From an uncultured Bacteroidales bacterium (GTDB lineage Bacteria > Bacteroidota > Bacteroidia > Bacteroidales > WCHB1-69), in NCBI GenBank assembly GCA_900315705.1, contig ONAB01000027.1, positions 571 through 40,323 of the forward strand: a stretch of DNA of 39,753 nucleotides, written 5' to 3'. Shown in pieces: positions 361 to 4,162 of the stretch. Under the pieces are notes generated by a model that saw nothing but the letters and a program-made list of their open reading frames with translations, ran no database searches and was not told the origin of the DNA. Every line of letters starts with the position of its first letter. The first letter of the stretch is position 1. Made by a program: the position numbers and the translations under genes.

Positions 361-2252
361 TTTCCCCATATCCCCACCACCCGCCTCACTCTCTTGCTCC
401 TCCCGTCGGGAGTGCGCCACTGGATGACGGCAATATAAGAGCCGGTGGGCAGCGGGGCACCGTAGGTGTCGGTGCCGTCCCAGCGGAATAGAGCCTCCGT
501 GCCGCAGTACTCGTTGTTGACCAGGCTACGCACCAGTCGCCCTTGGCGGTCGAAAATCTGGATAGAGAGCCGGTTTTCGGGTTGCGTGAAGCGGAGGGTG
601 AATTCTGTGAAGTCCTCAAAGCCGTCGTTGTCGGGGGAGAACACCTCCGGCGTGATGGCAATCTCATCGCGGGGCAGCTCGTCGCCGGCGTGGGAATTGC
701 GGTATCCCGGGGTGGCGAATCCGGCGGTGGAGGCCGCGGAGTGCCAGTTGGCCTCGTCCTGCGTGGGCTCATCGCTTCTCAGGCGCTCCAAGCTCACCCC
801 CTCGGTGCTCAGCAGTCCGGGGTAGTGCATCCCCTCGTCATAGGCGAAGCGGTCAAGGGACAGCAGCCCGACAGTGGTGAGGTGCACGATGCCGCTGCCG
901 TTGTTGTAGGCGGGCAGCGAGTCGCACGGCTGCAGGGCGCGTGCGTCAGGACAGAAGTAGTGCGATAGGGTGTGGTCGCGGTCCTTGCAGAGTGCGCAGT
1001 ACTCGCCGGGGAACAGCTGCCGGCCACTGCCCACGGCCACTATCGCTTTGCCGGGCAGGGTGTCGCCGCCCGAGCCAATCTTCACTTCCTTGAGGTCGAT
1101 AATTTTCGAGGAGCGGTTGTAGATTTCGATGAAGTCGGCATCGGCCCCGTCGAAGGGGTGGGAAAGTACCTCGTTGATGACGAGGTCGCGTGCGGTGGGC
1201 GACTGAGTGAGCCCGAAGGGCAACTCCCCGGTGACGATGGGGTTTCCTGCGCAGTCGCAGAAGTCCTCGGTCAGCGCAATGCGGTAGTGGACGCCAAAGT
1301 GCGGCACCTCGCCCAGCCGAATGTCGAGGGCATCAAAATGGGGAGGCACTTCCCGGACTTCAGTGATGTCCAGCAGGGGAGATATTGAACACCACGCTGT
1401 GCGGAGGGGTAGGGGAGGCTGCAAGGGTTCGGAGAAGAAGAGACGGAGGGTGGAGCTGTCGAGGAGGGTGAGCCGTTCCAGAAGGGGCGGGTTGGGGTCC
1501 TCCACGGTGCGGCGGGCGTCGTTGGGTGCGCCGGGGGTGCCGCCCAAGGGCGAGGTGGAGGAGTTCCAGTTCGTCGCCCCCAGACAGGGCATACGCTCGT
1601 CCAGCATCTCCAATGACCAGCCGCCATCCTGCTTCACGGGTTCGCTGTGCCACGCCTTCTTGAACGTGACGGAGTGGATGACCTCGCCCTGTGGGTCGTA
1701 AAGCGTCAGGCGTTGGCCACCGTCGGTGATGCTCAGTGAGGAGAGGGCGACGGCGGGGATGCCCAGCGAGTCGAACATCGCGAGGTTGCGGGCCGCCACC
1801 ACGATGACATAGCCAGCGCTGTCGAGAGTGAGGGCAGGCAGTTCCTTGAGGGTGTTGCCCGTCTGCAGTTTCCAGCCACTGAGGGTGCAGGGGTGGGGGA
1901 GCCGGTTGTGCAGTTCCACATACTCGGCGGCAGGCAGCCCGACGGCGGGTGTGGGGTCGGCCATTATCTCGCTGATGACGATGTCGTAACGCCCCACAGT
2001 CTGGGCCAGTGCCGGCCCGCGCAGGGCCGCGACAGCGAGGATGCAGAGCGCCGCTATCACTGCGCAGTCGCGTCGCTGGTGGTCGCCCCACACTGCGCGA
2101 CTGCGTCGCTGGTGGTCGCCCCACACTGCGCAGTTGCGTCGCTTGTACTCGCCCCACACTGCGCGACTGCGTCGCTTGTGCGGGGTTACTGGAATATCGT
2201 GCCTTCGGCACGGGGAATAATGCCAGATGTAATAAAAAGTGGTAGAAGTCAT
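357..2252 (-). CDS. Secreted lamin-tail-domain protein with C-terminal T9SS/FlgD-like sorting domain
   Basis: The body (up to about 2035) has two lamin-tail domain (LTD) units. One begins near D-I-V-I-S-E-I-M-A-D-P just after the signal peptide; the second begins near R-D-L-V-I-N-E-V-L-S-H-P. The last ~95 residues (F-S-P-D-N-D-G-F-E-D-F ... G-A-P-L-P-T-G-S-Y) are a FlgD/CHU_C-like C-terminal domain used for type IX secretion or anchoring. A hydrophobic core (V-I-A-A-L-C-I-L-A-V-A-A-L) ending in ALAQ is the likely Sec signal. The start is uncertain. The ATG at 2250-2252 is the only in-frame ATG, but GTG codons at 2093 (in the last 33-bp repeat) and 2060 are alternatives. The frame stays open through the repeat arrays to 2420. 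Function beyond a cell-surface or secreted role is unknown. Confidence 0.8.
   Translation of the reverse strand: MTSTTFYYIWHYSPCRRHDIPVTPHKRRSRAVWGEYKRRNCAVWGDHQRRSRAVWGDHQRRDCAVIAALCILAVAALRGPALAQTVGRYDIVISEIMADPTPAVGLPAAEYVELHNRLPHPCTLSGWKLQTGNTLKELPALTLDSAGYVIVVAARNLAMFDSLGIPAVALSSLSITDGGQRLTLYDPQGEVIHSVTFKKAWHSEPVKQDGGWSLEMLDERMPCLGATNWNSSTSPLGGTPGAPNDARRTVEDPNPPLLERLTLLDSSTLRLFFSEPLQPPLPLRTAWCSISPLLDITEVREVPPHFDALDIRLGEVPHFGVHYRIALTEDFCDCAGNPIVTGELPFGLTQSPTARDLVINEVLSHPFDGADADFIEIYNRSSKIIDLKEVKIGSGGDTLPGKAIVAVGSGRQLFPGEYCALCKDRDHTLSHYFCPDARALQPCDSLPAYNNGSGIVHLTTVGLLSLDRFAYDEGMHYPGLLSTEGVSLERLRSDEPTQDEANWHSAASTAGFATPGYRNSHAGDELPRDEIAITPEVFSPDNDGFEDFTEFTLRFTQPENRLSIQIFDRQGRLVRSLVNNEYCGTEALFRWDGTDTYGAPLPTGSYIAVIQWRTPDGRSKRVRRVVGIWGN
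2061..2180. repeat. 33-bp tandem repeat array 1 (3.6 units)
   Basis: Units start at 2061, 2094 and 2127, each 33 bp, plus a partial unit from 2160 to about 2180. They share a TGCGC start and a GCCCCACAC end; the middle varies between GTCGCTGGTGGTC and GTCGCTTGTACTC. There are no spacers, so this is not CRISPR. Read on the minus strand, each unit is 11 codons (VWG(D/E)(H/Y)(Q/K)RR(D/S/N)(C/R)A) and begins with GTG. The array joins directly to the signal-peptide core of the lamin-tail gene. Confidence 0.9.
2183..2212. repeat. REP-like hairpin 1 with GGGGTTACTGGAATAT lead
   Basis: The stem CGTGCC/GGCACG with triloop TTC is at 2198-2212, preceded by the 16-base lead GGGGTTACTGGAATAT (2182-2197). 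The same lead occurs at hairpin 3 and, inverted, at hairpin 4. Confidence 0.8.
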
Positions 2253-2309
2253 AGTCTTATGATTTGAGTTCGGTGTTGTTGTATCAGATGATTTGTCGTA
2301 GAGGTAGTG

Positions 2310-2326
2310 GCGTGCCTCTGGCACGC
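2310..2326. repeat. REP-like hairpin 2
   Basis: The stem GCGTGCC/GGCACGC has triloop TCT. It sits immediately left of array 2. Two GTAG tetranucleotides occur just upstream (2298-2301 and 2304-2307); a GTAG beside the hairpin foot is typical of enterobacterial REPs, though here the match may be chance. Confidence 0.75.
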
Positions 2327-2328
2327 GG

Positions 2329-2441
2329 TTGCGTCGCTTGTGCTTGCCCCACACTGCGCAGTTGCGTCGCTTGTGCTCGCCCCACACTGCGCAGTTGCGT
2401 CGCTTGTGCTCGCCCCACACTGCGCGACTGCGTCGCTGGTG
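2329..2441. repeat. 33-bp tandem repeat array 2 (about 3.4 units)
   Basis: A partial unit at 2329-2354 is followed by full 33-bp units at 2355-2387 and 2388-2420, then a partial unit at 2421-2441 that breaks into the GGGGTTACTGGAATA lead. The sequence is nearly identical to array 1. The two arrays are separated by about 150 bp that include hairpins 1 and 2. Confidence 0.9.
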
Positions 2442-2442
2442 A

Positions 2443-2474
2443 GGGGTTACTGGAATAGCGTGCTGTAAGCACGC
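2443..2474. repeat. REP-like hairpin 3 (compensatory stem variant)
   Basis: The stem GCGTGCT/AGCACGC with triloop GTA is at 2458-2474. Compared with the other copies, one pair has changed from C-G to T-A on both arms, which preserves pairing and supports a selected structure. The lead GGGGTTACTGGAATA precedes it, as at hairpin 1. Confidence 0.8.
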
Positions 2475-2521
2475 AGGGGTGACGCTTCTCCTCTGTCGTG
2501 GACGCGGGTCGTACGTGGTGC

Positions 2522-2574
2522 CGTGCCGTAGGCACGATATCCCAGTAACCCCTTACAGCTATGCTGTATGGGGT
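2522..2574. repeat. REP-like hairpin 4 (inverted) plus a second long hairpin
   Basis: Hairpin 4 is CGTGCC-GTA-GGCACG at 2522-2536, followed by an inverted copy of the lead (ATATCCCAGTAACCCC, 2537-2552). Overlapping the end of the lead is another hairpin at 2548-2574: ACCCC-T-TACAGC, loop TAT, GCTGTA-T-GGGGT. It has 11 pairs and one T-T mismatch. The opposite orientation relative to hairpins 1 and 3 resembles BIME-style REP pairs. Confidence 0.75.
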
Positions 2575-2595
2575 GGCGATGTGTGGCGGGCACCC

Positions 2596-2612
2596 GCGTG
2601 CCGAAGGCACGC
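2596..2612. repeat. REP-like hairpin 5 at the transposase gene end
   Basis: The perfect stem GCGTGCC/GGCACGC with triloop GAA. Its last base (2612) is also the last base of the TAG stop codon (2612-2614, minus strand) of the adjacent transposase gene. Confidence 0.8.
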
Positions 2613-3067
2613 TACTTGCTGTCTCGCAGAAAATAACGTTCGTCAATCTCTATCCCGTTTTCCTCTATAAAAGACCGGTACTCCTCAGCAAAGGTCGTTT
2701 GTTGATGGTGCTCCTTTTGCCGAATGATATAGTTTATGATTTTATCCTTATCTCTAAAATTGTAACTGAAGCCGCCATATTCGTGTCCCCAACCACGAAA
2801 ATCTGGAAAATGTGGATTGACCTTCAACCATTTGCTGCTATCAGTCTTTACTCTTTGTACAAACGAAGCTAGCGATATTGTGGAAGGCAATGACACAAAT
2901 ATATGAATATGGTCAGGCATACCGCCTATTCGGTAGGTCTGACAATCTAGGTTCCTTGCGATGCCGAAAATGTAGGCGTACAATTCCCTTTCGTGTTCTT
3001 CAGAGATTGTTTTTTCACTCTGGTAGGTGCGAAATACGATGTGATAATGCGATTTGGTGTAACTCAT
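2612..3067 (-). CDS. IS200/IS605-type Y1 transposase, likely REP-associated (RAYT-like)
   Basis: This 151-residue protein has the Y1_Tnp (PF01797) plan. M-P-D-H-I-H-I-F contains the HUH metal-binding motif (H-I-H, about residues 53-55), and a Y-I-I-R-Q segment (YxxxQ) in the C-terminal third carries the likely nucleophilic tyrosine. These enzymes cut and join single-stranded DNA at hairpin ends. No TnpB or IscB gene lies beside it. Five hairpins with one stem consensus lie just downstream, so a domesticated REP-associated role is more likely than a free IS200, though an IS200-family element remains possible. The length is normal and the gene appears intact, with ATG at 3065-3067. It is visibly more AT-rich than its neighbours, which suggests acquisition. 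Confidence 0.85.
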   Translation of the reverse strand: MSYTKSHYHIVFRTYQSEKTISEEHERELYAYIFGIARNLDCQTYRIGGMPDHIHIFVSLPSTISLASFVQRVKTDSSKWLKVNPHFPDFRGWGHEYGGFSYNFRDKDKIINYIIRQKEHHQQTTFAEEYRSFIEENGIEIDERYFLRDSK

Positions 3068-3123
3068 AATTTTTTGATTTAATTTAAATGTATAATGCCT
3101 TTATGTTTGTTTTGCAAAAATAG

Positions 3124-3131
3124 TATCTTTG
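3124..3131 (+). promoter_or_regulatory. Bacteroidota -7 promoter element for asd
   Basis: TATCTTTG matches TAnnTTTG and lies 50 bp before the asd ATG, downstream of T-rich sequence (TTTGTTTTG near 3106-3114). No other gene could use it. Confidence 0.65.
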
Positions 3132-3181
3132 CAGACGGAATGCAATATTTGTTAATAACTTTTTAAAATTCTTAATAAATT

Positions 3182-4162
3182 ATGAAAATAGCATTGGTCG
3201 GGGCCACCGGGTTAGTGGGTGGTGTTATGCGTAAAGTCTTGGAAGAAAGAGGTTTCGGTGATTGTGAGCTGATACCGGCTGCTTCGTCAAGGTCGGTGGG
3301 CAAAAAGGTTACATTTGCCGGAAAAATGTGTAATGTCGTCTCCGTGGAGGAGGCCATCGAACAGGCCCCCGAGTATGCCATTTTCTCCGCCGGCAGCGGC
3401 CCGTCACTGCAATACGCGCCACTCTTCGCTGCCAAGGGCACCATGGTCATCGACAACTCGTCGGCGTGGCGCAGCGACCCATCCAAGCCTCTCGTGGTGC
3501 CGGAAATCAACGGTGACGTGGTGACCCCGGCCGACCACATCATCGCCAACCCCAACTGTTCCACCATCCAGATGGTGATGGCCCTGGCCCCGCTGCACCG
3601 CCGCTACCGCATCCGCCGCATCGTGGTCTCCACCTACCAATCGGTCACCGGCACGGGAATGAAAGCGGTCAACCAACTGGAAAAAGAGCGGGCCGGCGAA
3701 CCTTGCGAGCGCGCCTATCCCCATCCCATCGATATGAACCTGATCCCGCACGGCGGCACGTTCGAGGAGAATGGCTACACCACTGAGGAAACCAAACTCC
3801 TGAACGAGACCCGCAAGATACTGCGCGACAGTGAAATTGCTGTCTCCGCCACGGTGGTGCGCGTGCCCGTCACGGGTGGCCACTCCGAGTCGGTGAATGT
3901 CGAGTTTTACGAGGATTTCGACTTGCAGGAGGTGTACGACCTGCTGAAGGCGATGCCCGGCGTGGTGGTGCAAGACAACCCCGCCGAAAATCTCTATCCG
4001 ATGCCGCTGTATGCCAAGGACAAGGACGAGGTGTTCGTGGGGCGCGTGCGCCGCGACTTCTCGCAGCCCAAAACCCTGAACTTATGGGTGGTGAGCGACA
4101 ACCTCCGCAAGGGAGCCGCTACCAATGCTGTGCAGATTATGGAGATGCTGCTGAAAAGATAA
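3182..4162 (+). CDS. asd: Aspartate-semialdehyde dehydrogenase
   Basis: Reduces L-aspartyl-4-phosphate to L-aspartate-4-semialdehyde with NADPH, the branch step to lysine/diaminopimelate, threonine and methionine; cytosolic. The 326-residue protein opens with the nucleotide-binding loop G-A-T-G-L-V-G (7-13). The catalytic cysteine is C126 in N-P-N-C-S-T, and the acid/base histidine is H234 in T-G-G-H-S-E. Length and motif spacing are normal. It is monocistronic behind its own -7 element. Its stop (4160-4162) abuts the stop of the convergent FISUMP gene with no spacer and no clear terminator between them. Confidence 0.97.
   Translation: MKIALVGATGLVGGVMRKVLEERGFGDCELIPAASSRSVGKKVTFAGKMCNVVSVEEAIEQAPEYAIFSAGSGPSLQYAPLFAAKGTMVIDNSSAWRSDPSKPLVVPEINGDVVTPADHIIANPNCSTIQMVMALAPLHRRYRIRRIVVSTYQSVTGTGMKAVNQLEKERAGEPCERAYPHPIDMNLIPHGGTFEENGYTTEETKLLNETRKILRDSEIAVSATVVRVPVTGGHSESVNVEFYEDFDLQEVYDLLKAMPGVVVQDNPAENLYPMPLYAKDKDEVFVGRVRRDFSQPKTLNLWVVSDNLRKGAATNAVQIMEMLLKR

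Follow-up and report, generated by a model that had tools for sequence, protein, structure and literature searches.

The window analysed here, a stretch of 39,753 nucleotides from contig ONAB01000027.1 (assembly GCA_900315705.1) of an uncultured Bacteroidales bacterium in the lineage WCHB1-69, carries a small gene for a Y1 single-strand transposase that is bordered by a set of short DNA hairpins. We read this locus, at a probability of roughly three in four, as a unit akin to the REPtrons and REPINs built on repetitive extragenic palindromes (REPs), in which a transposase of TnpA-Y1 subclass 1.2 is paired with its cognate hairpins and presumably acts on them. The hairpin system linked to this gene resembles a REPtron and probably works like one, with an enzyme of another subclass. 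REPs and their REP-associated tyrosine transposases (RAYTs) are mostly known from Proteobacteria. The features of the locus are as follows:

2612 to 3067, minus strand: Y1 (HUH) transposase gene, 151 amino acids, TnpA-Y1 subclass 1.2 by motif (DHIH, YIIRQKEHH)
2596 to 2615, minus strand: Hp1, the gene-proximal hairpin GCGTGCC-TTC-GGCACGC, with a GTAG foot overlapping the stop codon TAG
2549 to 2573, minus strand: HpA, a CCCC...GGGG hairpin on the 3' side of the gene, with Hp1 and the lead as its neighbours
2539 to 2552, minus strand: lead GGGGTTACTGGGAT
2522 to 2536, minus strand: HpB, CGTGCC-TAC-GGCACG, after the lead
2413 to 2474, plus strand: second HpA-lead-HpB unit (HpA 2413-2446, lead 2443-2456, HpB GCGTGCT-GTA-AGCACGC 2458-2474)
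2324 to 2441, plus strand: HpA-like 33-bp tandem array, 3.6 copies
2307 to 2326, plus strand: Hp1-like hairpin GCGTGCC-TCT-GGCACGC with a GTGG foot
2152 to 2212, plus strand: third HpA-lead-HpB unit (HpA 2152-2185, lead 2182-2195, HpB CGTGCC-TTC-GGCACG 2198-2212)
2058 to 2180, plus strand: HpA-like 33-bp tandem array, 3.7 copies, an in-frame extension of the LTD open reading frame (ORF)
2061 to 3112: insert separating LTD from asd, approximate, with edges not resolved to the base; homology to the sister locus L237 ends at 2012 and resumes at 3113

The initial annotation had described five triloop hairpins with a shared stem, a lead beside three of them and a transposase whose stop codon touches the fifth, and all of these are in place. 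The hairpins lie at 2198-2212, 2310-2326, 2458-2474, 2522-2536 and 2596-2612, with the stems, the triloops and the T-A for C-G swap at 2458 as it gave them, and the pattern CGTGC(C/T)-NNN-(G/A)GCACG (CGTGCNNNNNGCACG) is matched 5 times in the window, the shuffle mean being 0.11 and a count of 5 being reached in 0 of 100 shuffles. The lead, which reads GGGGTTACTGG(A/G)AT at the three window hairpins, stands at 2182-2195 and 2443-2456 on the plus strand and, inverted, at 2539-2552 on the minus strand (expected number, 0), and the stop codon TAG (2614-2612, minus strand) falls inside the GTAG foot (2615-2612) of the fifth hairpin. Beyond that account, the GGGG of the lead also forms the 3' half of the stem in a longer hairpin, HpA (CCCCACAC...GTG.GGGG), HpA is repeated in 33-bp tandem arrays at 2058-2180 and 2324-2441, and a GTGG foot is seen at the 2310 hairpin. 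The two arrays also read as in-frame repeats of 11 amino acids, and the LTD ORF is about 120 codons longer past a GTG near 2060.

Hairpins accompany the gene in its relatives as well. A family scan gave 187 encoding stretches, of which the best 80 were kept; removal of three without an intact ORF (L091, L105, L111) and two short ones (L088, L122), and addition of the window and two paralogs from the same genome (L044, L045), left 78 loci, with a third paralog (L046) excluded as distant. With a hairpin defined as a 7-bp stem allowing one mismatch, and other ORFs in the same loci as controls, a hairpin follows the stop codon in 69 of the 78 loci, 48 of them with a GTN-G foot (controls 22 of 165, 2 with the foot), and precedes the start codon in 65 of 76, 12 being HpA-type and 37 having the foot (controls 43 of 144, 0 with the foot). 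Under a strict definition, a perfect 6-bp triloop hairpin, the counts are 49 of 78 versus 2 of 165 on the 3' side and 45 of 76 versus 6 of 144 on the 5' side. Since the GTN-G foot is present upstream also, it is not merely a by-product of the stop codon TAG. Two inverted hairpins with a GT[AG]G foot, a trait of class-2 transposases, occupy both sides in many relatives, where GTCG and GTTG feet occur too, and the 3' side only in the window.

The two sides mirror each other. Among 59 family loci with two-sided hairpins (of 78), the inner five bases of the stem match between the sides in 40 (permuted mean 14.8, maximum 23), and stem and loop recur unchanged in inverted orientation in 29 loci and in direct orientation in 3. 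In relatives from the window's clade, each side carries the full unit in inverted orientation, listed here from the gene outwards: Hp1 (GTN-G foot, 7-bp stem, triloop), HpA, lead and HpB. The stem also covaries. In 54 loci chosen by GTNGC near the stop, a choice in which pairing was not used, 333 of 378 cells are paired, against a mean of 270 and a maximum of 291 after shuffling of the arms; at least 6 of 7 pairs are kept in 48 of these loci, and two-sided pair changes are seen at stem positions 3, 5, 6 and 7. Moreover, the stem follows the clade: coarse stem class requires 6 changes on the gene tree, where shuffling requires 13.4 on average and at least 11.

The association extends across Bacteroidota. 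At E 1e-10, the profile matches a gene in 135 of 296 sampled genomes of the phylum, the Y---Q--HH motif being checked in 65 loci only. These derive from 69 fetched loci, a non-random set of 29 top matches and 40 hand-picked ones with guessed start codons, after removal of four without an ORF (L215, L224, L226, L228). Under a looser criterion than in the family (at least 5 bp within 160 nt), hairpins occur on the 3' side in 53 of 65 versus 33 of 107 controls and on the 5' side in 49 of 65 versus 14 of 90, with ACCCC, GTCCC, ATCCC and GCTCC as recurring stems. The inner five stem bases match between the sides in 29 of 40 two-sided loci (of 65; permuted mean 7.3, maximum 15), and identical stem and loop form 11 inverted and 6 direct copies. 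A TCTACC-type lead adjoins the hairpin in 13 of 65 loci on the 3' side (controls 4 of 107) and in 10 of 65 on the 5' side (controls 0 of 90).

Parts of the unit are dispersed away from the gene. Of 105 family genomes, 29 contain the exact lead, with 299 copies against 7 in the control and at most 45 in one genome; at least three copies are present in 14 of the 39 genomes that hold a close gene versus 2 of 66 others (Fisher p 1e-5, with kinship ignored and gene-adjacent copies counted). Many of the lead sites listed for one sister genus are inverted pairs, and 16 gene-less elements from three of its genomes were fetched because they are such pairs. They are 200-220 bp long, show by eye the order HpB, lead, HpA, Hp1, Hp1, HpA, lead, HpB, and none of the 16 lies inside a spanning open frame of at least 110 codons. 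Halves of four of them, compared within their own genomes, match the gene flanks at 64-77% over stretches of at least 90 bases, and to judge from this likeness the elements look like two gene flanks joined together. REPINs, as Bertels and Rainey reportedly described them in 2011, are inverted hairpin pairs scattered without a gene, and the same trait is found here.

These elements differ in presence between species. The site matching one of them (L280) is empty in four sister genomes, and another (L271) is carried by two genomes and missing from one, with flanks indecisive in four more. The sites without the L280 element (L295-L298) hold AT-rich repeats like TCAGAATTC, which vary between species. 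For the gene itself, the interval from LTD to the downstream asd measures 138-395 nt and is free of Y1 genes in 28 of 28 genus relatives, namely those with 1500 nt upstream of asd (L241, with 307 nt, was left out), and the window has about 1 kb extra. Gene neighbours are common to 4 of 500 pairs of loci at 75-80% protein identity, rarely below 85%, and to 34 of 45 pairs at 95-100%. In a REPtron-like unit of this kind, a TnpA dimer would bind folded hairpins on single-stranded DNA, for example the lagging-strand template, and the GTNG foot would serve as cut guide; the stretch between two inverted ends would be excised and re-inserted at another site, and gene-less end pairs (200-220 bp, similar to REPINs or to miniature inverted-repeat transposable elements, MITEs) would be mobilised in trans. 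For the window protein we infer binding, cutting and transposition, and roles in these steps for HpA and the lead.

The protein has the HUH and YxxxQ motifs of the initial annotation (DHIH, YIIRQ) and matches Pfam Y1_Tnp at E 1.1e-19. Y---Q--HH is present in 78 of 78 family and 65 of 65 phylum loci, DH.H in 78 of 78 and 60 of 65, and the C-terminus is conserved across 42 aligned sequences, compared among themselves only. In the accessible parts of Quentin et al. 2018 (PMC6006769), subclass 1.2 is characterized by DH[IV]H, Y---Q--HH, about 150 amino acids and low copy number, and is found mostly in Cyanobacteria and Bacteroidetes; Table 1 there gives REP 'no' for it, and the text states that typical IS200 terminal structures are generally lacking. 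The window protein fits TnpA-Y1 subclass 1.2 by motif. It also shares the subclass's few diverged gene copies per genome: Pfam Y1_Tnp matches five places in this genome, a 47-contig draft, four of them of the window kind, and the other three proteins are 60, 57 and 33% identical to that of the window. No near-identical second copy was found in the draft, in line with the single-copy gene that the initial annotation had proposed to check for. The fifth match (L313, G000:C34:3018-3257) is weaker, at 34 bits. The reported absence of REPs does not agree with the hairpins that adjoin the gene in the window and its relatives.

The main alternative, which we consider rather unlikely, is that the gene is part of an insertion sequence of the IS200 kind, one with complex hairpin ends and MITE derivatives of the usual sort, and that there is no REP-type system. 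It would account for a gene unit that is an insert relative to the genus relatives, for loci that mostly differ in neighbours and for gene-less derivatives resembling two joined ends, and the closest solved structures by sequence are IS200/IS605 transposases (2a6m, 2xm3). It is at odds with the lack of near-identical gene copies in the genome, where only the 60, 57 and 33% relatives occur, with the inverted, GTN-G-footed hairpins in REPtron style, and with the position of the protein outside the IS200/IS605 references in a tree of 98 proteins. This tree comprises 54 of the 78 family members (thinned by identity), L046, 34 of the 65 phylum members, four annotated IS200/IS605 references and five RAYT references, one annotated as rayT and the other four selected for resembling it. 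All 54 rows of the window family fall into one clade (100/99), and the IS200/IS605 and RAYT references each form their own (100/97 and 100/100); the 35 distant rows from Bacteroidota do not group as a single clade, and a clade joining them with the family is not rejected (p-AU 0.338). L109, titled as a Clostridia bacterium, sits inside the Bacteroidales clade, perhaps through a binning error. The grouping with mobile IS200 that the initial annotation had proposed to check for is not seen with these four references.

Two formal assignments were considered and rejected. Membership in IS200/IS605 disagrees with the separate clade, with a score of 52.8 bits for NCBIfam transpos_IS200 that narrowly misses the cut-off of 55, and with the lack of near-identical gene copies. 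Membership in the class-2 RAYTs disagrees with YIIRQKEHH in place of Y---NP, with 28.7 bits for NCBIfam REP_Tyr_transpos, far under the cut-off of 80, and with a position outside the clade of the five references. Of the original RAYT-type claim, the idea that a Bacteroidota genome pairs a Y1 transposase with REP-like hairpins of its own is supported, and a strict class-2 RAYT is not.

Within this genome, each of the three paralogs has flanking hairpins of a different stem, read by eye. L044 (G000:C20) shows an array of about 95-bp period with TATGCC-GGA-GGCATA hairpins upstream of a Y1 gene that is bracketed by GCATCTC hairpins. L046 (G000:C2), the 33% relative, lies between GTCCC hairpins, some with a GGTAGAA tail; downstream of it are units like those of a 14-bp tandem repeat (CATCTCGCAAATCG) at 316-356 of the window. 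The pattern GTCCCN{3,4}GGGAC has 65 places in the genome versus 6 in the control, the exact lead GGGGTTAMTRGRAT has 31 copies (control 0), and the lead with at most two mismatches has 26 places (control 9). Besides the window's three and L030, these include 22 places, of which 14 run into GTCCC-NNN-GGGAC and 5 into close variants, and three (L027, L029, L040) are without a second stem arm. Of the matches to CGTGCNNNNNGCACG outside the locus, C27:4134 and C45:6250 were recognised by eye as lead units whose lead is a variant, and C10:8214 as a gene-less element in decay (L047). The exact stem GCGTGCC-NNN-GGCACGC is confined to the window locus. The dispersal predicted at the outset is borne out for lead units, mostly with a GTCCC-type stem, and fails for the window's own stem, which is rare outside the locus.

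These dispersed units with mostly another stem, like the 33-bp HpA arrays of the window, could be taken to mean that the gene inserted into, or was captured by, a family of repeats that are not processed by it, so that the hairpins are targets and not substrates. We find this improbable, given that Hp1 sits at the stop codon in loci mostly without common neighbours and that stem class is tied to gene clade. A role of the hairpins in terminating transcription of the gene or in controlling its mRNA would agree with a hairpin directly 3' of the stop codon, and is very improbable in view of TTTT within 12 nt past the hairpin in just 5 of 69 loci, inverted copies upstream of the start, the gene-less elements, and a window region (2000-3200) with no Rfam match at E 0.1. 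At the same threshold, nine other sources gave one tRNA and two hits that fall short of the gathering score; one of these two, a Histone3 match (24.9 bits, gathering 34) on the upstream hairpin of the C6 gene (L045), we attribute to chance.

Several points weigh against a REPtron-like unit, whose activity is argued from sequence. Hairpins stand on the 3' side of the window gene only, and the 110 nt before its start contain none; the window copy may for this reason be one-sided or decayed, and immobile now. The exact lead is missing within 1 kb of the gene in 54 of 78 loci and is a feature of only part of the family. Fewer than three lead copies are present in 25 of the 39 genomes with a close gene, in counts that include gene-adjacent copies (all 8 in G007), and in the genome with most copies (G058, 45) the best gene match spans residues 1-108 only. 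In this genome, 7 of the 22 dispersed lead sites lie inside ATG ORFs of at least 100 amino acids. The pattern CGTGCNNNNNGCACG has 11 places in the genome, 5 of them in the locus, and the remaining 6 are hardly enriched over 4 in the control. The cognate enzyme of the dispersed lead units is not certain because they mostly carry the GTCCC-type stem. Finally, the edges of the empty sites are not resolved to the base because their flanks are AT-rich repeats.

The initial annotation had called a Bacteroidota version less described. This can be sharpened, as PMC6006769, in the parts accessible, reports REP 'no' for the subclass. The published classification lists no REP for subclass 1.2, yet many relatives carry their own hairpin repeats. 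In searches of one open-access library, no paper assigning repeats to subclass 1.2 was found, which does not prove that none exists; a search for hairpin strings left four 13-/14-base strings unmatched and returned a 10-base string only in unrelated papers. In the passages available, PMC11194056 names Chryseobacterium genes RayT with repeats unmentioned, PMC8040213 presents palindromic RNA candidates in Bacteroidetes with the word transposase unused, and PMC3733652 has Bacteroidetes among the phyla with CGTC repeats. A broader proposal, for and against which we see the balance as even, is that Bacteroidota have a phylum-wide, as yet unassigned REP/REPIN system to which subclass 1.2 is dedicated as the transposase, with multi-hairpin ends, miniature gene-less elements and a guide of GTAG type that emerged or survived outside the class-2 RAYTs. 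If a class-1 enzyme uses hairpins tagged in like manner, an IS200-like ancestry of domesticated single-strand transposases becomes testable, and the palindromic repeats of Bacteroidota genomes gain a candidate source.

Compared with known systems, the window protein agrees with subclass 1.2 as given in the accessible parts of PMC6006769 in DH[IV]H, Y---Q--HH, a length of about 150 amino acids, low copy number and occurrence in Bacteroidota, and departs from that account in the inverted hairpins that flank most family members and many members of the phylum sample. It shares with IS608 and ISDra2 of IS200/IS605 a Y1 domain related by sequence (2a6m, 2xm3) and, as far as the accessible parts of PMC8266576 go, hairpin ends; it differs in having no near-identical gene copies here and in standing apart from the IS200/IS605 references. 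The likeness to REPtrons and RAYTs, as they appear in the accessible parts of Nunvar 2010 (PMC2817692) and Corneloup 2021 (PMC8266576), lies in a gene between inverted hairpins with a GTAG/GTGG foot, a lineage-specific stem and dispersed copies. Unlike a class-2 RAYT, the protein is class-1 by motif, without Y---NP, and GTCG/GTTG feet also occur; unlike in REPtrons, each end in the window's clade consists of three hairpins and a lead. With REPINs the system shares gene-less, dispersed, inverted hairpin pairs, which here are 200-220 bp long and have a central GTNG pair with HpA, lead and HpB on both flanks.

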